A stretch of DNA of 64,000 nucleotides. Source: Corynebacterium accolens. Its GTDB lineage: Bacteria > Actinomycetota > Actinomycetes > Mycobacteriales > Mycobacteriaceae. Below the pieces are notes generated by a model, which worked only from the letters and a program-made list of their open reading frames with translations, did not search any database and was not told the DNA's origin. Location of the stretch: contig NZ_CP046605.1 of NCBI RefSeq assembly GCF_023520795.1, positions 744,001 to 808,000 of the forward strand. The letters are read 5' to 3'. Shown here one piece after another: positions 29,775 to 40,427 of this stretch. Position 1 is the first letter of the stretch, and each line of letters begins with the position of its first letter. A program made the translations under genes and the position numbers.

Positions 29775-29784
29775 GGCTTAGAGC

Positions 29785-31785
29785 TTAAGCCAGGCTCGGG
29801 ATATAGGCCACGCTGCCGCCCAAGGACATGGTGATAAAGATGGGCGCGATAACCAGGGGGCCGAGCCATACGCGGCCGGTATTGGCATAAAACATCTTGT
29901 TCAAGATGGGCAGCAGGATCATCATGGGCAAGATGGACTGCAGCATATTCACATACAGCCAGTCATCGGTCCAGTGCACCGTGCCGGTGGCGGCGAAGAC
30001 GGAATATTGGATAACGAAGATCATCGCCAAGCCGACGGAGTTCGCCAGCGCCGCGATGAGGTAGGTCTGCCACTTGGGCGTATCGCTATAGCGTGTGCCC
30101 ACGCCGGCGCGGATGGAGTTGGCCAGGTAGAAGATGAACATCGCCGGTACGTACATCAGCGCCACCAAGAACCAGCGCAGCGTCAGCGGGCGCGATGCCA
30201 CGACCAGGAAGCGGTAATCGCTGTGGAAGGCGAGGTAGACGATGGATAGCACGGAGAAGTACACGAAGAGCAGGATGAAGGCGAGCAGTATCGTGCGCCA
30301 AAAGGTGCGCCAGCTCATCGTGATGCCCCACGCGCGGGCGCGCTCGCCGCGGGCATAGGTGGACTTATCCCGGGTGATATAGAACAAGATAAGCCCGACG
30401 ATGCCGTTGACGATGGCCCACAAGACCACCGAGTTGACCATGCGCGCCGGGAAGAACCAGGTGCTGACCTTATTCGCGGCATCGTAGAAGACGTCCTGCG
30501 AAAGGTTCGCCAGCGGCATGAACGTGAAGAATGCGATGGCCGCCGAAAGCACGAAGAATGCCCAGAACTTCGCGGCCTCTTTGCCCCGCGGACGCTTCGG
30601 TACCGTCGGGAGAGCCTGTGCCACCGGGGCGAAGTAGCGGGTGCGCAAGAGCATGCGGGTCAGCGGGAAGAGCATGGCAATGCCGCCGATGAGGGACAGG
30701 AGGTTAAAGACCTCCTTGAGCCACCACGTCTGATTGCCGGAATCCATCTTCACTGGCGCATCCAGGGTGTCATCGAAGAACTCGAGGATACTGCCGATGG
30801 CACTGGGTGTAAGCGGCTGCAGCGGGTGCAGCGTTTCATCGTTATAGGCAACGCGGTACGTGCCCTCGTCGATGTCCCCGTAGCCCCGGCCGATCTCAAT
30901 GCGGTCCACCTGGTCTTGTTTCTTGAGCCCAGAGTTGACCATGGACAGGGCCTCTGGGGCATCGCGCAGATCGCCATCGCCGTTGATATTGCGGTAGCCG
31001 CCCTCATCGTAGCGGGCATACCCCAGCGCCATATTGGAGTGCACGTGCGCGAACTTCTTATCGTTTAAGTTCTTGAGCCAGCCGGAGATAAAGACCGCGG
31101 AGATCTTATCCAGGTCCTCAGCGCGCTTGCGCTCGCCATCTGTGATGGTGGTGCCGCCTTCGCTATCTGGATCCTTGGCGGCTTCGAGCGCATCATCGAC
31201 CTTCTTGCCGTACTTATTGGCCGCGGTGCGCACCGCGGTACCACCGGCGGAGTGGCCGGTAATGCCGATGCGATCCTCGTCGACGTAATTAAACGTATCC
31301 AAGTGGTCAGTGACGTAATCAATGGCAGTTACGACGGCGGTATCGCCATCGTCCGGGTGCTGCGAGCTCGATTCGCCCTGGTTATATGGGTCAACTACCA
31401 GGGTGACAAAGCCGCGCCGGGCCAATTCCAGCGAGTTGGAGACCTGAGTTTCCTTGGTGCGCTGGAAACCGGGCGAGACGATGACCATCGGCGCTTTATT
31501 CTCCGGCGTCGCGTCCTTCGGCCGGAAGAGATCGGCGGTGACGGTAGCGCCGTGCTTGCCGGCGATTTTGAGGTCAGTGACTTGAACATTGCCGCCATCG
31601 GTTTGCACCAGGGACGAGCCCAGGGCGCCGACGAGCACGATGACGATGCACACGAGGAGCTTCCAGCCATCGCTAAAGCGGCGCTTCTTCGATACTTCAG
31701 CGGGCAACTGCTGTGCCTGCTGCTCTAGAGAAAGGGACGACCGCTCTTCCATGGGAGCGGAGGAGAGGGATGTGGAGTCGGACAT
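29785..31785 (-). CDS. Alpha/beta hydrolase fused to a multi-pass membrane domain
   Basis: A 666-residue fusion. Residues 1-40 are polar, then one membrane helix (about 42-60, LLVCIVIVLVGALGSSLV). Residues 65-340 are an alpha/beta hydrolase with nucleophile Ser in GHSAGGTAVR and oxyanion-region SPGFQRTKE; the domain faces outward if the N-terminus is inside. From about 365 on, seven or eight helices follow (LSLIGGIAMLFPLTRML, FFVLSAAIAFFTFMPL and others). I do not know the substrate. Start ATG 31785 is preferred to an upstream ATG at 31815. The downstream OsmC gene is 10 bases away. Confidence 0.75.
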   Translation of the reverse strand: MSDSTSLSSAPMEERSSLSLEQQAQQLPAEVSKKRRFSDGWKLLVCIVIVLVGALGSSLVQTDGGNVQVTDLKIAGKHGATVTADLFRPKDATPENKAPMVIVSPGFQRTKETQVSNSLELARRGFVTLVVDPYNQGESSSQHPDDGDTAVVTAIDYVTDHLDTFNYVDEDRIGITGHSAGGTAVRTAANKYGKKVDDALEAAKDPDSEGGTTITDGERKRAEDLDKISAVFISGWLKNLNDKKFAHVHSNMALGYARYDEGGYRNINGDGDLRDAPEALSMVNSGLKKQDQVDRIEIGRGYGDIDEGTYRVAYNDETLHPLQPLTPSAIGSILEFFDDTLDAPVKMDSGNQTWWLKEVFNLLSLIGGIAMLFPLTRMLLRTRYFAPVAQALPTVPKRPRGKEAAKFWAFFVLSAAIAFFTFMPLANLSQDVFYDAANKVSTWFFPARMVNSVVLWAIVNGIVGLILFYITRDKSTYARGERARAWGITMSWRTFWRTILLAFILLFVYFSVLSIVYLAFHSDYRFLVVASRPLTLRWFLVALMYVPAMFIFYLANSIRAGVGTRYSDTPKWQTYLIAALANSVGLAMIFVIQYSVFAATGTVHWTDDWLYVNMLQSILPMMILLPILNKMFYANTGRVWLGPLVIAPIFITMSLGGSVAYIPSLA

Positions 31786-32017
31786 ATACGCGTTCCTTGT
31801 GGGGTGGTACTTCATTGAAACGAGTGGGCTGAAAGTCCGATAGTGGAAAACTTAAAGTCCAGCGTGGAAGCACATTAGGTCCGCCCGAAAGCCGGTGCAA
31901 ACGGTGCACTTTCCAGGAGTGCTGTACGGACGCTGAGCTGCTTAAATTCCGCCCGGCGCAGTGAATTAATTACGCGAGGAGGGTAAGGGGTGCGGCAACC
32001 CCACATTGGGGGATTAA

Positions 32018-32035
32018 CCTATAGCCCAATAGATA
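32018..32035. promoter_or_regulatory. AmtR operator
   Basis: CCTATAGCCCAATAGATA carries CTATAG, a short spacer and ATAGAT, as in the corynebacterial AmtR box (ATCTATAGN(1-4)ATAG). AmtR is the TetR-type repressor of nitrogen-limitation genes, released by modified GlnK in C. glutamicum. The box lies about 60 bases before the amtB ATG. The gap 31786-32096 carries nothing else I can identify. Confidence 0.75.
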
Positions 32036-32096
32036 TTTGTATACCTGTAGTACTACCGTTATGAAAAGCAATGAAGGAACCCTACAAGGAGAAACA

Positions 32097-33419
32097 ATGG
32101 ATTCGGTGATCGCAGGCAATGCGAGCTGGATGCTCATGAGCGCGGCTCTCGTGCTGCTCATGACCCCAGCCCTGGCACTTTTTTACGGAGGCATGACAGA
32201 GCGCCGCGGTGTGCTCAACATGATGCTGATGTCCTTCGGCTCACTAGCGGTAGTCAGCATCATTTACATCCTCTGGGGCTGGTCAATGAGCTACGGCACG
32301 GAGTCTTGGGGCGGCATCGTTGCCAACCCCTTCGAGTTCTTCGGGCTCAAGGATTCCATCTTTGATGCCAACGGTGAGTACCTCGAAGGTGCGGAAGGCT
32401 ACGCCAATATCATCGATATCGGCTTCCAGCTCACCTTCGCCGTTATTTCCACCGCGATTATCTCCGGTGCACTCGCGGGCCGTGTGAAGTTCGGTACCTG
32501 GATGATTTTCAGTGGCCTGTGGGCAACCTTTGTCTACTTCCCGCTGGCTCACATGGTCTGGGGCGGTGGCATCCTGGGTGAGGGTGAAAGCAGCGTCACC
32601 AGCTGGATCTTTGGCAGCGAAGGTGGGGAAGCGCTTGTGGCACCGATTGACTTTGCCGGTGGTACCGTCGTCCACATTTCCGCCGGTACGGCCGCACTGG
32701 TCTTAGCGATTGTCGTGGGCAAGCGCCAAGGCTTCCCGAAGAGCGTTCAGCGTCCCCACAACCTGCCCATGGTCATGCTCGGTGCCGGCCTGCTGTGGTT
32801 CGGTTGGTTCGGCTTCAATGGCGGTTCCGCCTTCGCAGCCGATGGCCTCGCCGGCCTGGCCTGGGTCAACACCACCGCCGCAACGGCTGCCGCAATCCTA
32901 GGTTGGTTGCTCGTGGAAAAGCTCCGCGATAACTACTGCACTTCCTTAGGTGCAGCCTCCGGCGTGGTTGCCGGCCTAGTCACCATTACCCCGGCCGCCG
33001 GCGACCTGAACCCGGTCACCTCCCTCATCATGGGTGCCCTCGGCGGCATGCTGGGCTGCCTGGGCGTGGGCCTGAAGTTCCGCTTCGGCTTCGATGATTC
33101 CCTCGACGTCGTGGGCGTCCACCTGGTCGCTGGCTTGTGGGGCACCGTGGCGGTTGCGTTCTTTGCCAATGATCGCGGCATCTTTACCGGCGGCGGCGCC
33201 GAAGGCTGGAAGCTGCTCATCGTACAGATCCTCATCGCCGCAATCGCCATGGTCTTCGCCGCAGTCATTACCGCCATCATTGCGGTGATTTTGAAGGCGA
33301 CCATTGGCTGGCGCGTGACCGACCAGATTGAAACCGACGGCATTGACTTTGGTGGTCACCGTGAGACCGGCTATGACATTGGCGGCCGTGCCATGCGCGG
33401 TACCACCAGCCGCAACTAA
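32097..33419 (+). CDS. amtB: Ammonium transporter AmtB
   Basis: A 440-residue channel with 11 membrane helices. The twin-histidine pair of the conduction pore is His193 (TVVHISAGTA) and His342 (VVGVHLVAGLWG). The segments FYGGM at 29-33 and FGWFGFNGGSA near 235-245 are signature motifs. The C-terminal tail after 395 is where GlnK docks. Start ATG 32097 follows AAGGAG; the frame upstream is not coding. It is followed by glnK after 27 bases and preceded by an AmtR box, the standard nitrogen-response arrangement. Confidence 0.96.
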   Translation: MDSVIAGNASWMLMSAALVLLMTPALALFYGGMTERRGVLNMMLMSFGSLAVVSIIYILWGWSMSYGTESWGGIVANPFEFFGLKDSIFDANGEYLEGAEGYANIIDIGFQLTFAVISTAIISGALAGRVKFGTWMIFSGLWATFVYFPLAHMVWGGGILGEGESSVTSWIFGSEGGEALVAPIDFAGGTVVHISAGTAALVLAIVVGKRQGFPKSVQRPHNLPMVMLGAGLLWFGWFGFNGGSAFAADGLAGLAWVNTTAATAAAILGWLLVEKLRDNYCTSLGAASGVVAGLVTITPAAGDLNPVTSLIMGALGGMLGCLGVGLKFRFGFDDSLDVVGVHLVAGLWGTVAVAFFANDRGIFTGGGAEGWKLLIVQILIAAIAMVFAAVITAIIAVILKATIGWRVTDQIETDGIDFGGHRETGYDIGGRAMRGTTSRN

Positions 33420-33446
33420 AACGCCCAGCGATACCTAGGAGCAACA

Positions 33447-33785
33447 ATGAAACTCGTAACAGCCGTGGTCAAGCCCTTTACTCTTGATGATATCCAGCAA
33501 GCCCTACAAAAGCTCGGCTCGCCCGGCATGACGGTGACCGAAATCGAAGGCTTTGGCCAGCAACGCGGCAACAAGGAAATCTACCGCGGCGCCCAATTCG
33601 CCACCTCCTTTGTGCCTAAGGCCAAAATCGAGCTCATCGTGGCAGACGATGACGCCGAAGCAATTGTCGATGCCATCGTCGACGCCGCCTGCACCGGCGA
33701 AATCGGCGACGGCAAGATATGGATAGCCCCCGTCGAAGACGTCATCCGCGTCCGCACCGACGAGCGTGGGGAGAAGGCTATTTAA
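33447..33785 (+). CDS. glnK: PII signal protein GlnK with Phe at position 51
   Basis: A 112-residue PII protein, full length. Core signs are MKLVTAVVKPF, MTVTEIEGFG (28-37), the T-loop QQRGNKEIYRGAQFATSFVPKAKIE and the GDGKIWIAPVED signature near 88-99. In canonical PII proteins the T-loop reads YRGAEY with Tyr51 as modification site (uridylylated in enterics, adenylylated by GlnD in C. glutamicum). Here the codon at position 51 is TTC, giving Phe (GAQF). Tyr46 is kept. In C. glutamicum glnD follows glnK; here an accessory island does. Modification control of AmtB and AmtR may therefore be lost or different. Otherwise ATP/2-oxoglutarate sensing residues look normal. Confidence 0.94.
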   Translation: MKLVTAVVKPFTLDDIQQALQKLGSPGMTVTEIEGFGQQRGNKEIYRGAQFATSFVPKAKIELIVADDDAEAIVDAIVDAACTGEIGDGKIWIAPVEDVIRVRTDERGEKAI

Positions 33786-34469
33786 GCCTCCAAGACACCG
33801 GCGCCCCAGGCCTCCTCAGAAGAGTGGAGGGCTGGGGCTCTAAGCTGTCGTTAAATCTTATGGTGAAGAAACAATGGGACCATCGAACCGGTTTGTGCCG
33901 AATCGGAACTATCGGCCTTAAAACGATGAGAGGGTGTGTGCTCTCCTTTGACGGCTACTCACTGGCTAAAGATCATTCCTCAGGCATCGGGCGGTGCCTA
34001 ACCGAAGCTAGCGACAAGTTCTACTGCTCATCAAAAGAAAAGTAATAGAAACGCAGACGAACATAACCTGCCCTTGTCCAGGGGTAAAGTTAGGAATTTT
34101 GGGTACCTTTAAGCGGAACTGCTGACAACGCAATGGATGCCGAAATGGAACCCTTGCGTTAATCCTGGATTATCTTGTTTATGTTGCTGTTACCGAACGC
34201 TGTGGCAGCAGGACCGCGGCCACGGAAATAGGCATTGCCCTTTGTTCGGCAGTTGGGATAATTCCACCTGCATCGTTAGTACATGTCAGGAGGTCAGTAG
34301 CAGCCATTATCGGCCCTTTATAAGAGCAAGCCTTGACGTGAATTCCGACAAGCCAAGGGCGTGACCGTGTAGGGCGCTTACGCATGTGTTCTCAAGGACC
34401 CCTTTGAACTGGACACTGGCCCTGATGGAAATATTTAGCTTCCTGCTTTACACATGAGAAGCTTGAAGA
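33786..34469. other. Gene-free AT-rich left part of accessory island
   Basis: About 680 bases without a supportable gene. Directly after glnK, GCCCCAGGCCTCC and GGAGGGCTGGGGC (33803-33838) form a hairpin with one mismatch but no clear T run; it may terminate amtB-glnK. The rest shows no promoter, tRNA or recognisable IS end, and several short open frames are unlike any protein I know. The usual glnD is not here. Confidence 0.5.
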
Positions 34470-35297
34470 ATGAGTCAATCCTCTTCTTCTTTTCCTCACC
34501 GTTCGACGATCCGCAATATTGCAAACGTCCTGGCCAGCCCTGAACCACCGTGCCTGACTGGAAGTCAGATTGACCAGCTTCTGCAAGATATAGACGCGCC
34601 ACCACGTGGAACCGGAAATAAACGAGAGGGACTGTTTGGCGCGCTTACTAACACGTCCAATTCGGAGTCAGCCGCTCAACGTACGCGTGACTTCATAGCG
34701 GCGGCAATGAGTCCGGCACGACACACTAACAACCGCCAGTTCTGGGAGGATTTGCGTCGCCAGCTCAACCGGGTACTGATCACTGAGGGGTGGCACATCG
34801 ACGAAGATTGCCGGTTGATCGAATTCGGCGAAGTAGCAAATAAATTTGACGATATTGACCGTCTCACAAACTCTCTCATGGAGGAGCTACATCGGCGAGG
34901 TACTCACGAGCATCTGCTGGAATATTGCAGTCAAGAACTGATCTCCCAGTCACTGTTCCATGCGATATCCGAGGCCGCCAAGTCGATTCCTGATCGCATC
35001 CGTAACCTTACAGGCCTGACGGATGATGGCCAGGACTTGTTCGACACCGCTTTGGGAACAAAGAATTCTGCTCCTAGGCTTTTAATTAATGGACTTTCCA
35101 CACAGTCGGAGGAATCAGAACAAAAAGGGTTTAGGAACCTTCTGGTAGGTATCTATGGGCACTACCGGAATCCTCGCGCACATCAAACCCGGCGGGGAAG
35201 TGAGGAAGACCAACATGACTTTCTCGATGCTTTTAGCTTATTTTCTTATGTTCACCGTCGCCTCGATTCAGCCCAGCTTGATCAGTCCTTCAGATAG
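34470..35297 (+). CDS. TIGR02391-like protein with HEPN RN-x3-H motif
   Basis: A 275-residue cytoplasmic protein. The C-terminal 120 residues match the TIGR02391 (Ymh) type: IPDRIRNLTGLTDDGQDLFDTAL near 173-195, then LLINGLS, EQKGFRNLLVGIYGHYRNPRAH (about 217-238) and a helix with FSLFSYVHRRLD. RNPRAH at 233-238 has the R-N-x3-H arrangement of HEPN ribonucleases, with the helix after it. The N-terminal half is variable. Genes of this group recur in defence islands and near restriction systems; RNA cleavage is inference. Start ATG 34470 is chosen as the first Met; no clear ribosome binding site. Confidence 0.7.
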   Translation: MSQSSSSFPHRSTIRNIANVLASPEPPCLTGSQIDQLLQDIDAPPRGTGNKREGLFGALTNTSNSESAAQRTRDFIAAAMSPARHTNNRQFWEDLRRQLNRVLITEGWHIDEDCRLIEFGEVANKFDDIDRLTNSLMEELHRRGTHEHLLEYCSQELISQSLFHAISEAAKSIPDRIRNLTGLTDDGQDLFDTALGTKNSAPRLLINGLSTQSEESEQKGFRNLLVGIYGHYRNPRAHQTRRGSEEDQHDFLDAFSLFSYVHRRLDSAQLDQSFR

Positions 35298-35471
35298 AAG
35301 TCGCACCCGAACCTATCTTCCGAAAGTGGCACCCATCAATTCGCTCGATTCTAGTAACCATAGAACTTAAGCGTCCCAGGTTTGTTCTGTTTGAGTAGAT
35401 GGAAAACCTGGAACTTGCCAAGAAGGACCCAGCCTCCGGCGTGTCCACTTTCCGGGGGTCAGGCCCCAGCA

Positions 35472-35918
35472 GCGTTGAAGAAGGTGTATACAGCTACTGA
35501 TGAATCCACGGCAGAAGCGGCGTTGAAGGAATTCTCCAAGTCTGAACTGGGTGTGAAGTACCCTCAGTCGGTCAAGGTCTAGGAGGATGCGTGGGATAGA
35601 TTCGTGCCATTTTTGCAGTTTCCTCCAGCGGCCAGGAAGGTTATCTATACGACGAATTCGATTGAATCGTTTAACAACCAGCTGCGTAAAGCCACGCGCA
35701 ACCGGGTCCAATTTACTAATGATGATTCCGCGTTAAAGACGCTGTGGTTGATGATCTGCAATATTGAAGACAAACGAGCTATCAAGCGGGCGAAACAAGG
35801 CAAACGGGCCTCGGCTACAACCAGCAGGCTCGTGGAAGGAGCACGAGTATCCGGCTGGAAACAAGCCATCAACCAAATGGCCGTGGCCTTTCCTGACCGC
35901 TTCGACAAATACCTATAA
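35472..35918 (+). pseudogene. IS256-family (Mutator) transposase, C-terminal fragment with nonsense codon
   Basis: About 149 codons from the C-terminal third of a Mutator-type transposase. Visible motifs are LKKVYTATDESTAEAALKEF, ARKVIYTTNSIESFNNQLRK, the region holding the third catalytic acid, and GWKQAINQMAVAFPDRFDKYL. A TAG at 35580-35582 stands where family members have Trp (KV-stop-EDAW). Upstream, the frame has no similarity to the catalytic N-terminal part, so the gene is 5' truncated and dead. The IS right end follows at 35937-35953. Confidence 0.85.
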
Positions 35919-35936
35919 ACCTAACCCCACACACAA

Positions 35937-35953
35937 ACAACTTGACACGCTCG
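35937..35953 (+). mobile_element. IS256-type right end of fragment 1
   Basis: ACAACTTGACACGCTCG directly after the transposase stop is probably the right terminal repeat. An inverted copy, ACAACTTAACAGGCTCG on the minus strand (38304-38320), matches 14 of 17 bases, and the two ends face each other across the HEPN-DUF262 pair. Confidence 0.65.
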
Positions 35954-36094
35954 GCGCAGGGAGCGGAAATAGCTACCTAGCAACTAGCTAACAATGCTAT
36001 GTTTTCACGACCTGCGGGAAACGCAGAATTTAAAATCCTATTTTACTAACATCAAACCAGGATATTGAAACTTGATTATCAGGCCGTCACTCTA

Positions 36095-36874
36095 CTAAGC
36101 CAACCGCTTTTCGACAGTAAAGGAAGAATCTGCTTTCTCTATTAAAATTTTTTGCAATTCAGAAAACGACTCCTCTACAAAATCAATAGTTTTGGGTAAG
36201 CCGTCCTGTACTTCCTCTGGAAAACTATCACTTCTATATGTGGGATCACCGTGCGCAATGCCGTTGCGTATTTCGACCATTTTATCAATAGTTTCGCCAT
36301 TTCTGTGGAAAAATTCAGGGATGCGTATGTCCAAATCGCGTAACAATTTTTTTAAAACTTTGATTCTGAGATTTGAGGAAGTATTAGAAAATATTTTTAT
36401 TTCTTGTTCCTGAAGCTCCAATCGATCATCATCGAGCTGTTCAATGAAACGCGCCCGTAGTTTTTGAAGTTCTTCAGGAGAAAGATCCGAGTTCTCCATG
36501 GCTTTTTTGTGCTCTTCCAGTCTCGTCCTCAGGATACGTCGAACTGCCCTTGGGTGTGATTGGGCTTCCCGAAAAGATACGTAACCTAATGATTTCAAGT
36601 AAATTTGAATAGCTTGCTTTACGTATCCTTCCCAATGGGAATAGGTAAGTATATACATCGCACGCTTGTCTAAAGCCGATAACGGAACTACTCGTCCACT
36701 GCTGTCATCTTCAATATATTGATAGCGAACGATAGTTTTTTCGGGGTTGTTGGGATCTTTTTGAGTTGTCTTTCGATACTGGAAGTTGAACTTGCTCACC
36801 AGTTTGTTTAGCTCTTTTTTCCTCCACGCGCTGGCCTCGGTTAATGCACCAAATAATTCATCGATGTCACGCAT
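36095..36874 (-). CDS. MAE_28990/MAE_18760-like HEPN nuclease, partner of DUF262 protein
   Basis: A 259-residue protein (from ATG 36874). Near residue 79, SHWEGYVKQAIQIYLKSL is the characteristic N-terminal helix of the MAE_28990/MAE_18760 HEPN families. RNGIAH at 203-208 is the R-N-x3-H catalytic motif of HEPN ribonucleases, followed by GDPTYR. The middle (about 115-165) is a charged coiled helix (EEHKKAMEN...). HEPN proteins of this kind are RNase toxins in anti-phage or toxin-antitoxin modules. A TTG at 36883 in the same frame is an alternative start. The gene follows the DUF262 stop by 12 bases or fewer and belongs to the same transcript. Base composition is AT-rich compared with neighbours. 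Confidence 0.8.
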   Translation of the reverse strand: MRDIDELFGALTEASAWRKKELNKLVSKFNFQYRKTTQKDPNNPEKTIVRYQYIEDDSSGRVVPLSALDKRAMYILTYSHWEGYVKQAIQIYLKSLGYVSFREAQSHPRAVRRILRTRLEEHKKAMENSDLSPEELQKLRARFIEQLDDDRLELQEQEIKIFSNTSSNLRIKVLKKLLRDLDIRIPEFFHRNGETIDKMVEIRNGIAHGDPTYRSDSFPEEVQDGLPKTIDFVEESFSELQKILIEKADSSFTVEKRLA

Positions 36875-36886
36875 TTGTTTCAATTT

Positions 36887-38065
36887 CTAACGCCTTTTAA
36901 AGTATTGACGTCCGAAGTTAATCATTTTTGGAAAACGATCGCGGGCATTTACTCCAGATCCTACGTGTTCGCGGAATTCATCAGAAGTCCAAAAATCGGA
37001 CAGTAATCCTTGGAGGGTTTCAGGTGTACTCTCCCAGAAGTCTATTTCATTTGATACGCCGGACATTACAAATTCAAAGGCAGCATTTGATGCTGGACCG
37101 CGACGGGATTTCCCATCTTCAGAGAGTCGACGGAGCGCATCACTGCCTCCTGCAGACAGAACCAAGGAAACAGTCCTATTAAACAAATCCGTATCGGGAG
37201 TATAACTGGACTCTTCCCGTAAAGCAGCACCTTTCGCCCACGCCGTCAGGTATTCTCCGAAGTCTTCTCGAAGTGACGAGGTGTCTCCGGAAAATTCGCT
37301 CTGCATGAAAAATCGTAAAACAAGCTCATCGCTGAAAGCTTGTTTCGACTTTCTATCTGAGAGTTGAACAAGTTTAAGGAAGTCCTCGTTCTGTGCACAT
37401 GACTTAATGGTTTTAAAGAAACTCGGGTTAACCATCAGTAACAGGCAGTTTCGGAGTTCTTGCTGAGTAAGGCTAGCTCCAGAATTCAAGCGCAAGAATA
37501 AATTGTACTTAGCTTCTGCAGAAGAAGTACTCTCCAGCATCGTGACATCGATACGCGTAGTTTCTAGTTTTCTTTTAAGCGCTCTCGGTAGGTCGATCCA
37601 ACTAAGATCTTCTGCCTCGACTAGGTGTTCCAATCTAGACAGAGCAAATGGCTCAAGAGAAAATTCCGAGTCCCTACCCGAATCGGTTAATGCTTCTTCA
37701 TCGGCACCGTCCATGCTATTGTCGCCCGACTCAAGGTTATTGTCCGAATCCGGAAAGGTCATCCCCATAAAACTGAAAATGGTGGAGAGTCTCTGTACAC
37801 CATCAACCACATCCCAATCACCATCAAAATCTTCGGAAACAAAGACTGAGGGTAGTGGAATGGACAACAACATGGATTCAATCAGAGAAGATTTCTGTTC
37901 TTTGGTCCACCGGAACGTTCTCTGAAACTCTGGGCGGATATTTATCTGCCCTTCCTCAAACATGCTCCTTAACTCCCTCACCGAGTACGAGGTTGTTGCT
38001 GCCCGGACTTCTTGAGACCTAGCTTTAACAGCGTTGACAAGCTCTTCTTCACTAATGGCTGACAT
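36887..38065 (-). CDS. DUF262 (GmrS/SspE-like N-domain) protein
   Basis: A 392-residue cytoplasmic protein. Residues about 25-110 form a DUF262 domain with a ParB/Srx-like fold: PEFQRTFRWTKEQK near 45-58, SIPLPSVFVSE near 68-78, and DGVQRLSTIFSF with the DGxQR nucleotide-binding motif at 88-92. NLFLRLNSGASLTQQELRN near 190 is also family-typical. No C-terminal DUF1524 HNH nuclease is present, unlike GmrSD or SspE proteins; instead a HEPN gene follows. Start ATG 38065 has AAAGGAC six bases upstream, and TATAAT lies at 38115-38110 on the minus strand. Inference: an NTP-dependent sensor or regulator of the HEPN RNase. Confidence 0.85.
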   Translation of the reverse strand: MSAISEEELVNAVKARSQEVRAATTSYSVRELRSMFEEGQINIRPEFQRTFRWTKEQKSSLIESMLLSIPLPSVFVSEDFDGDWDVVDGVQRLSTIFSFMGMTFPDSDNNLESGDNSMDGADEEALTDSGRDSEFSLEPFALSRLEHLVEAEDLSWIDLPRALKRKLETTRIDVTMLESTSSAEAKYNLFLRLNSGASLTQQELRNCLLLMVNPSFFKTIKSCAQNEDFLKLVQLSDRKSKQAFSDELVLRFFMQSEFSGDTSSLREDFGEYLTAWAKGAALREESSYTPDTDLFNRTVSLVLSAGGSDALRRLSEDGKSRRGPASNAAFEFVMSGVSNEIDFWESTPETLQGLLSDFWTSDEFREHVGSGVNARDRFPKMINFGRQYFKRR

Positions 38066-38109
38066 AAATCGTCCTTTCAATTCGTATAGAACTACAAAAT
38101 CCACTCGCA

Positions 38110-38115
38110 ATTATA
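38110..38115 (-). promoter_or_regulatory. -10 hexamer TATAAT for the DUF262-HEPN pair
   Basis: TATAAT reads on the minus strand, giving a leader of about 38 bases with ribosome binding site AAAGGAC before ATG 38065. The -35 region is weak. Confidence 0.5.
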
Positions 38116-38303
38116 TCGTGAAAACTAAATGCGTGGGTCCTTTTTTGAGCGCCCGTTAAGTCCTCTGGGGTTCCCGCAAATCGTGGACACGCAGTGAAGC
38201 TACCTTGAGGTTAGACAACCATCTATTTTGTCGGCAGTAAATCCGATGTGGTTTTCGAAGACGACTGGGCTGACCATCCTGTTTGCTCCAGGGTCAGCTT
38301 CAT

Positions 38304-38378
38304 CGAGCCTGTTAAGTTGTTCATGCGTGGGGTCTGGATTATAGGCTTTATCGAAGCAGTCGGGGACGGCCATTGAGG
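38304..38378 (-). mobile_element. Decayed IS256-type right end, fragment 2 (inverted)
   Basis: On the minus strand, ATGGCCGTCC...GACTGCTTCGATAA...CTATAA...CCCCACG...AACAACTTAACA follows base by base the last coding bases and the right end of the fragment at 35880-35953, with substitutions and short indels. The encoded peptide AVPDCFDKAYNPDPTHEQLN echoes AVAFPDRFDKYL. Orientation is opposite to fragment 1. Confidence 0.7.
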
Positions 38379-38496
38379 GGATCCGATGGTTGGTGTGTAG
38401 GTTCCCAACCTGCATAAGGAGATAACCCAGAATGCGTAATATGGCACGCCGAGAGCCGTCCGATAATGCGACCATAAGGAAGTTTTTCGCTACCCC

Positions 38497-38742
38497 GTGC
38501 ACGCGGAAATTATTGATGAATTAGCCATATCCACCACGGATGCCAATTCCCTAGTTTGGGCTTTACTGCAAGACTCAATTACCCGCGAGCTGAATGCGGA
38601 AATGGATGCCGAGGCTAGGCAGCAGTCAGGTAATGCTGTAGTTCCATTGCTTTCAGCGGGCCTCGGGACCGTGCTGGTGATCCTCGCGCTGGCCCGTTCC
38701 GGTCCTGTATTTGAAAAGAAAAATATAAAAGCCGAGCGCTAG
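38497..38742 (+). pseudogene. Probable N-terminal fragment of IS256-type transposase with unrelated tail
   Basis: An 81-codon open frame. Its first 45 residues (EIIDELAISTTDANSLVWALLQDSITRELNAEMDAE in shorter view: WALLQDSITRELNAEMDA) look like the start of a Mutator transposase, where a leader is followed by a phosphate-rich helix and the conserved ELxAEMxxHL motif. After residue 47 the sequence changes to a hydrophobic stretch (LLSAGLGTVLVILALA) with no relation to transposases, so the fragment was joined to other DNA. A hairpin AGCGCT-AGA-AGCGCT followed by AGTTTT lies at 38733-38750. Not a functional gene. Confidence 0.5.
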
Positions 38743-38941
38743 AAGCGCTAGTTTTGGGGCTGCACTCCTTGCGGGAATGCAGAGGACACGACGTTAAGCA
38801 CCTCCAATCAACCTACTGGTGGATTCAATGTTCAACCGCCTCTGCGATTCAAAGCCGAGCAAGTCGGGGCAAGATATGTATTTAGAGAAATTGATCCCCT
38901 CGGCTATCCAGTCACGGCGGTGGCTGGGAAGGAGTAATGAC

Positions 38942-39390: not shown

Positions 39391-40427
39391 ATGAGCGAGC
39401 ACAGCGCACAAGAAAACGTCACGGTGCCTACTCGCCGCGATTGGATAAGCTTGGCGGTTCTTTCCGTCGGACTGGGCGTCATCGTTCTTGATGGCATGAT
39501 CGTCGGCGTGGCATTGCCGTCGATTATCACTGACTTGCAGCTCAACCTGACGCAGGCGCAGTGGGGCAACAGCCTCTATGCGGTTTTGCTGGCGGCGCTG
39601 CTGCTGTCGACGGGCAAGAATGCGGATACCTGAGGACGCAAGCGCGCGTTCCTCACCGGCCTGACAATATTCGTGGCAGGCAGCGTATTGGCGGGATTTT
39701 CTACCTCCGCCGCCACGTGGATCTCCGTGCGCGCAGTACAGGCAATCGGTCCTGCGTTCATCATGCCTTCCACGCTTTCCACGGTTAATACCGTAGTCCG
39801 CGGCAAATACCGCGCAGCAGCCTTTGGTGTGTGGGGCGCGGTGATTTCCGGCGCGGCAGCGGTCGGACCGCCTGCCGGTGGTGCACTGACGGAATGGGTG
39901 TCCTGGTATTCGCGATTATCGAGGGCCCCGACCTAGGCTGGTGGGAGCCCCAATCCTCATTCAGCATCTTTGGCTGGACCTGGTCCGAAAACGCGGCTAT
40001 TTCACCGGTTCCGCTAGCGTCCGCGATTTCGGCCGTGGGCTTCGTGCTGTTTATCAGGTGGGAAAAGCACCGCGAGCGGAGGCACCGCTCGGCGCTGTTG
40101 GATCTTGAATTGTTTTCTTATTCCACGTTCTCGTGGGGCAATATCACCGCTGGTGCGGTAGCAATCGGCGAGTTTGCCATCATCTTCGTGCTGCCGCTGT
40201 ACCTGATTAATGCGCTAGACCTCAGCACGATGTTGGCTGGCCTGGTGCTGGCAGCCATGGCAATTGGTGCATTCTTCTCCGGTGCAGCCGCCCGCCGCGT
40301 CGCGGCACGGTACGGGGCGCCTGGGGCAGTGGTGCAGGCCTTAAGCGAAGACATGGCCAACGCCGCGCAGTGGTCGCTCGTAGCCGCTACCGCATTCTTC
40401 GTTCTGAGCTTTTGTCGGTGCACTTAG
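39391..40427 (+). pseudogene. Broken DHA2/EmrB-QacA-type MFS exporter
   Basis: The remains of a drug exporter in the 14-helix MFS group. The N-terminus (DGMIVGVALPSIITDLQ, helix 1-2) is intact to a TGA at 39631-39633, replacing a coding residue before GRKRAFLTG (the conserved loop 2-3 basic motif). The frame then runs on to about 39935 (STLSTVNTVVRGKYRAAAFG), where GALTEWVSW jumps frame to FAIIEGPDLGWW, so helices 5-7 are missing. A second jump occurs near GAPGAVVQ to ALSEDMANAAQWSL, losing several more helices. At least one nonsense codon, one frame change and two deletions make it nonfunctional. Confidence 0.88.

Follow-up and report, generated by a model that had tools for sequence, protein, structure and literature searches.

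Within a 64,000-nucleotide stretch of the Corynebacterium accolens genome (RefSeq assembly GCF_023520795.1, contig NZ_CP046605.1, positions 744,001 to 808,000 of the forward strand; hereafter the window), two adjacent genes encode a DUF262 protein and a HEPN protein. Near the clade to which the window belongs, DUF262 and HEPN form a conserved, co-diverging two-gene unit, and their pairing is not accidental. The pair probably acts in phage defence. By analogy with known systems, it is likely to do so as a two-gene anti-phage module in which the DUF262 protein would be the sensor and switch controlling a HEPN RNase, with abortive infection as the outcome. The two genes occur as one unit, their motifs are kept, and they are present on phages and plasmids. 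These observations indicate that DUF262 proteins of this kind, which lack a nuclease domain, are one half of a conserved pair and not degenerate GmrSD enzymes.

The DUF262 and HEPN genes and their co-occurrence

The DUF262 (GmrSD_N) gene occupies positions 36887 to 38065 on the minus strand and is assigned by its Pfam and PADLOC matches and its start context. Its intact reading frame gives 392 residues from the ATG at 38065, with AAAGGA ahead of the start. The HEPN gene, the predicted RNase effector, follows downstream on the same strand after a gap of 12 nt (36095 to 36874), and its frame, also intact, gives 259 residues from the ATG at 36874. These two ATG codons are the likely starts, and not the TTG codons of the open reading frame (ORF) list, in which the first-listed DUF262 ORF begins further out, at TTG 38110.

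The DUF262 protein matches Pfam GmrSD_N at E = 4.4e-25 and no second family at E ≤ 0.1, and carries DGVQR at residues 88–92 of the 392-residue form. Across 78 DUF262 sequences, E46, E78 and D103 are invariant, and histidine is absent from the invariant and nearly invariant columns. The HEPN protein matches PF18735 (RiboL-PSP-HEPN) at 3.6e-21 (76.4 bits, where the cut-off is 28.4), and also PF18737 (MAE_28990) at 3.6e-18; both families are matched by 78 of the 78 HEPN sequences of alignment A3. Its R-x4-6-H motif is present as R203-N-G-I-A-H208-G. No Pfam match to DUF1524 or another HNH domain was found in either protein. The structures nearest to a fold model of the HEPN protein are HEPN toxins and Csm6, HEPN-MNT toxins being the closest. 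Profile searches of PDB sequences returned a single unconvincing match for HEPN (E = 0.048) and two weak DUF262 matches for the DUF262 protein (9jfl_B and 20yv_A, E ~0.002). Weak PADLOC matches of some HEPN proteins to Cas13a, Csm6, CARF-HEPN and RTasHEPN were taken to reflect the shared HEPN motif rather than close kinship.

The pair has a G+C content of 43.6%, versus 57.7% for the whole window, and only 3 of 621 windows of the same length are equally low, each of them overlapping the pair. A scan for promoters and terminators gave nothing above chance. An earlier note on this DNA, made from the letters alone, had described a DUF262 gene with DGVQR and no HNH domain and a MAE_28990-type HEPN gene with RNGIAH, lying in one operon that is AT-rich against its flanks. 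That description holds throughout, and the residue numbers R203 and H208 are right when counted from ATG 36874.

Recurrence of the pair was measured in 160 loci, the best 80 of 572 from GTDB and the best 80 of 117 from IMG/VR, a sample that favours near kin. As counted with a HEPN profile iterated on matches in the same loci (2 of its 154 matches being non-adjacent), a HEPN ORF lies directly downstream of DUF262 on the same strand in 152 of them (77 of 80 GTDB and 75 of 80 IMG/VR loci), so that the possibility left by the earlier note, that members of the two families never co-occur, fails. DUF262 comes first in 152 of 152. The HEPN start overlaps the DUF262 stop or lies within 30 nt of it in 149 of 152, a figure in which overlaps are overcounted because the outermost start codon was used. 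Two of the 152 HEPN sequences are fragments, one of 65 residues at a contig end (L191) and one of 86 residues that is split (L236). As for the eight misses, a contig end within 144 nt explains five (L136, L172, L206, L207 and L227); at L226 a HEPN-like start is interrupted, on our reading of the translation, by a transposase-like ORF; at L127 no HEPN was found at the locus; and at L138 an FRG gene stands upstream of DUF262 instead.

The two proteins have also diverged together. For 140 non-redundant pairs, and with host phylogeny uncorrected, the mirror-tree correlation is r = 0.88, compared with at most 0.20 in 2000 permutations. All 140 pairs retain DGxQR and the HEPN arginine (R203), and 139 of the 140 retain the histidine (H208). 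The GTDB loci span actinobacteria, cyanobacteria, spirochaetes, Bacteroidota, alpha-, beta- and gammaproteobacteria, Planctomycetota, Chloroflexi and others. As the pair is present in 75 of 80 DUF262-bearing viral loci, it travels on phages or prophages. Further, a HEPN-type gene adjoins DUF262 in all 10 plasmid and phage regions opened among 23 matches (none chosen at random), nine of them recognised through annotation or Pfam and one, in a Terrisporobacter phage, from the motif in the alignment alone. At the Leptospira noguchii locus the DUF262 gene is split. Related pairs also occur on plasmid pCC2 of Corynebacterium callunae (L029) and in Psychrobacter cryohalolentis (L027).

Known relatives and alternative partners

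Among tested systems, PD-T4-2 has the same architecture, namely two genes for DUF262 and HEPN (PF18735) proteins without DUF1524. The window DUF262 protein matches PD-T4-2_A at 3.6e-36 (123 bits), residues 41–404 aligning with positions 37–361 of the 363 in the profile, and all 78 of 78 DUF262 sequences of A4 match it at 1e-3. However, the window HEPN protein has no match to PD-T4-2_B at E ≤ 0.1, and neither do its relatives (0 of 78 at 1e-3, 0 of 63 at 0.01, and none of the 6 viral sequences tested that are more divergent), whereas the HEPN protein of an Escherichia coli plasmid (L237) does match, at 4.4e-4. The PD-T4-2_A score of the window likewise lies below those of L237, L248 and L250 (169–190 bits) and of the viral L213 and L230 (170–175 bits). 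In a further tree, L213 and L230 join the group of the window (22 rows, Shimodaira–Hasegawa-like approximate likelihood ratio test (SH-aLRT) support 98), and L237, L248 and L250 form a separate group (99). PD-T4-2 itself was compared only through PADLOC models and published descriptions. According to passages of PMC9519451 (Vassallo et al. 2022), PD-T4-2 confers protection from T4 both on K-12 and on the strain it comes from, and T4 plaquing rose after its deletion from the native strain. Passages of PMC10952713 place DUF262 without DUF1524 in PD-T4-2, Menshen and Dazbog, and HEPN PF18735 in PD-T4-2.

The combination had in fact been tabulated earlier. In the survey of Anantharaman et al. 2013 (PMC3710099), RiboL-PSP-HEPN is listed as 'operon with ParB' and MAE_28990 as 'In operon with a ParB nuclease and DNA methylase genes'. 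These are the same families with the same 'ParB' operon partner, a DNA methylase included, and no difference in kind separates them from the window pair. Since the pairing was tabulated in the 2013 survey and PD-T4-2 has been tested (PMC9519451 and PMC10952713), the kind is already known; what is new beyond the survey are the counts, the co-divergence and the exchange of HEPN for FRG described below.

Of its two PADLOC labels, NsnA and PD-T4-2_A, the window DUF262 protein scores higher with NsnA, at 206 bits. NsnA and NsnB of PADLOC are, we take it, the Menshen proteins; a literature search on them gave nothing relevant among the matches listed. Three DUF262 proteins adjacent to ATPase-like genes score 403–450 bits with NsnA, and the one ATPase neighbour that was tested matches NsnB at 336 bits, whereas the neighbour in the window is HEPN. 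As its score falls below the range of true NsnA, the window pair is not NsnAB, and this assignment was rejected. The GmrSD, BrxU and SspE enzymes share the DUF262 domain with DGxQR; in the window pair DUF1524/HNH is absent, and a HEPN protein encoded by its own gene is the presumed effector. Dazbog has a DUF262 component too (PMC10952713), and DzbB is matched weakly by 2 of 63 HEPN proteins (best 2.3e-4), but DzbA is not among the window matches at E ≤ 0.1. For annotation, this means that searches requiring PD-T4-2_B or NsnB would overlook these pairs.

Outside the clade, several counts weigh against DUF262 and HEPN being a fixed pair. Among 396 evenly sampled Actinomycetota genomes, that of the window was the only one matched by the HEPN profile at E ≤ 1e-6, while the DUF262 profile at E ≤ 1e-30 matched seven further genomes. 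Of these seven DUF262 genes, two have a short HEPN-like ORF as neighbour and three an ORF that is ATPase-like as judged from its translation (one of the three was tested by profile); the other two have neither. Single-sequence searches of 301 family genomes found a DUF262 match (E ≤ 1e-10) in 19 and a HEPN match (E ≤ 1e-3) in 3, and in 11 further family loci examined by profile a HEPN-like neighbour was present in 3 (L010, L015 and L017). Given this sparseness of HEPN in the wider samples, the module is rare per group, and DUF262 is tied closely to HEPN only in the neighbourhood of the window's clade.

Some exchange took place within that clade. In a 63-row tree, whose root and long branches are unsure, the window falls in a 49-row group (SH-aLRT 96) in which 46 rows are paired with HEPN, 2 are paired with FRG and 1 has no partner; because the FRG-paired rows are nested inside this group, partners have been exchanged. 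In Williamsia sp. 1135 (L138, 4179–6125) an FRG-domain gene (PF08867, 7e-22; PADLOC PDC-S15) precedes DUF262. The second case (L074, 5740–7657, in genome G131 of the same genus code) also has a preceding FRG-domain gene (PDC-S15), 60% identical to the first. HEPN was not found at either locus, and among the papers of the library searched none combines DUF262 with 'FRG domain'. The claim in the earlier note that HEPN replaces HNH is thus right in that a DUF262 protein without HNH is partnered by a HEPN RNase-like protein, but too narrow, as the wider group also pairs with an OLD/AAA-like ATPase or FRG.

A DNA methyltransferase is another recurrent neighbour. In a search with five query proteins, taken from annotated neighbours, 15 of the 160 loci, 14 of these 15 being viral, proved to have such a gene no more than 1 kb from the pair. 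Rows with this label cluster on the tree: 13 of 140 carry it, and it needs 5 changes versus a shuffled mean of 12.6. Annotated phage loci with a methyltransferase come from Paraburkholderia, Roseomonas and Terrisporobacter. On viral contigs, the gene was seen within about 100 nt of the pair both upstream (L196, L198, L201, L222, L224, L225, L232, L233 and L235) and downstream (L212 and L228). The five queries gave no match between positions 30000 and 45000 of the window. A subset of loci may mark self DNA by means of the methyltransferase.

Taken more broadly, there is perhaps an even chance that the window pair belongs to a wide DUF262–HEPN group of many phyla and phages, whose HEPN protein is matched by no partner model in PADLOC 2.0.0 and in which a single DUF262 sensor would be joined to exchangeable killers, HEPN being the usual one, FRG a nested branch and the self-marking methyltransferase form mainly a phage one. 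The genome holds a second DUF262 protein as well (G000:C1:1119316, L002 1384–3156), with an open frame of 635 residues and a GmrSD_N match at 1e-24; no DUF1524 match was found in the 591 residues searched.

Proposed mode of action and competing explanations

The pair may work like PD-T4-2, with a sensor half like that of GmrSD, BrxU and SspE and the HNH nuclease swapped for an RNase encoded by the second gene. The DUF262 protein, with its ParB/Srx-like fold and a nucleotide pocket at DGxQR as proposed after GmrS, would act as sensor and switch. It would bind a nucleoside triphosphate together with a cue of infection, which could be DNA that is modified or foreign in some other way, or a change in nucleotides, and would control the HEPN protein, which infection would release or activate. 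Active HEPN would then cut RNA through its R-x4-H dyad, and growth of both cell and phage would stop. We infer sensing, switching and RNA cleavage from PD-T4-2, from GmrSD, BrxU and SspE, and from other HEPN enzymes.

One competing explanation is modification-dependent restriction, in which the DUF262 protein reads methylation, a cognate methyltransferase marks self DNA in some lineages and mismarked DNA triggers HEPN. The methyltransferase-bearing loci and their clustering on the tree fit this explanation, and passages of PMC10952713 associate the DUF262 domains of GmrSD, BrxU and SspE with the reading of DNA modification. However, 145 of 160 loci have no match to the five methyltransferase queries, nor does the searched part of the window, and the explanation seems rather unlikely.

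The pair could also be a plain toxin–antitoxin or addiction unit, with a HEPN toxin and a DUF262 neutraliser kept for plasmid or prophage stability and defence secondary or absent. Two short, adjacent, co-diverging genes that are present on plasmids and viral contigs would suit such a unit, as would the proximity of the HEPN fold model to HEPN-MNT toxins. However, antitoxins are usually small and variable, whereas the DUF262 protein is larger than HEPN, better conserved (mean column identity of 36% versus 31%) and carries an invariant nucleotide-pocket motif. As PD-T4-2, of similar architecture, also protects against T4 (PMC9519451), an addiction unit is an unlikely account of the pair.

Less probable still is that the DUF262 protein is itself a ParB-like DNA nuclease with HEPN as an accessory RNase. 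The partner is termed 'ParB nuclease' in the 2013 survey (PMC3710099), and the invariant acidic residues E46, E78 and D103 leave room for another kind of metal-dependent nuclease. The lack of a conserved histidine means that there is no HNH-type site, and modelling of GmrSD, in passages of PMC10952713 and PMC4619093, puts the nuclease in the GmrD half. For the preferred reading, a DUF262 switch that controls a HEPN RNase, the many natural pairs with swapped partners (HEPN, FRG or ATPase) would allow DUF262 sensing and partner switching to be tested.

Insertion sequence relics and genomic surroundings

The pair is flanked by relics of an insertion sequence (IS) of the IS256 type, of which the genome holds an intact copy (L075 958–2383, with an ORF of 447 residues) and more copies besides. 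The dead transposase tail that the earlier note had placed on the plus strand is there: a 3' tail with right end at 35467 to 35954, 89.3% identical to the intact copy, with its first base corresponding to position 1896 in that element. Facing it from the minus strand, as the note had also proposed, is a second, more diverged right end of 70 bp at 38304 to 38372, 78.6% identical to the intact copy. The two ends, aligned as the note had suggested, are truly homologous, with 55 of 70 aligned columns identical and a score of 63, while the highest score from 500 shuffles was 31. Just beyond, where the note had seen an N-terminal-like transposase fragment, an IS256-type piece does lie on the plus strand (38386 to 38620), more exactly a left end with the N-terminal part; it is 71% identical to the intact copy and 75.6% to L057, the nearest copy compared.

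That an IS256 composite transposon carried the pair as a passenger, which the note had thought possible from the two right ends facing each other around it, is highly improbable and was rejected, as the pieces are truncated, the outer ends are absent, the divergence from one intact copy is unequal (10.7% versus 21–29%) and the left end is in an orientation unfit for a composite arm. Further repeats at 35360–35466, 38165–38279 and 34001–34136 make the area a patchwork. The repeat at 38165–38279 recurs, whole or in part, at five other places in the genome, and at one of these, L076, it runs collinear with an IS256 right end just as in the window.

The pair lies in an accessory stretch that runs from an OsmC gene to a DUF2871 gene (29775 to 38807). 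These flanks are 9 kb apart here versus 0.86 kb in G254, a genome of the same genus, and the variable stretch together with the AT-rich composition supports the view that the pair was acquired. A clean empty site was not found among 60 other genomes of the genus that were sampled; of the 10 that carry glnK as well as the DUF2871 gene, 5 have them on different contigs and 5 at least 0.8 Mb apart. An amtB-glnK pair is located at 32037–33785 within the stretch, and another glnK lies elsewhere in the genome, at G000:C1:1601129.

Outside the pair, the stretch also holds a defence-type Hypoth_Ymh/TIGR02391 gene on the plus strand at 34470 to 35297 (PF09509, 1e-36; PADLOC PD-Lambda-3_B, 7.3e-47; TIGR02391, 6.5e-28). 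No obvious partner stands just upstream of it in the ORF list, the upstream ORFs not having been profile-searched. The closest relative of the window pair, in Corynebacterium aurimucosum (L071 1497–8132), adjoins genes for a TOTE-type primase-helicase and an AAA_21 ATPase; this ATPase and a small gene next to it are presumably PARIS-like. Beyond the accessory stretch, at 39391–40427, lies an apparently broken major facilitator superfamily (MFS) transporter gene in several frames, one piece of which matches MFS_1 at 3.6e-10.

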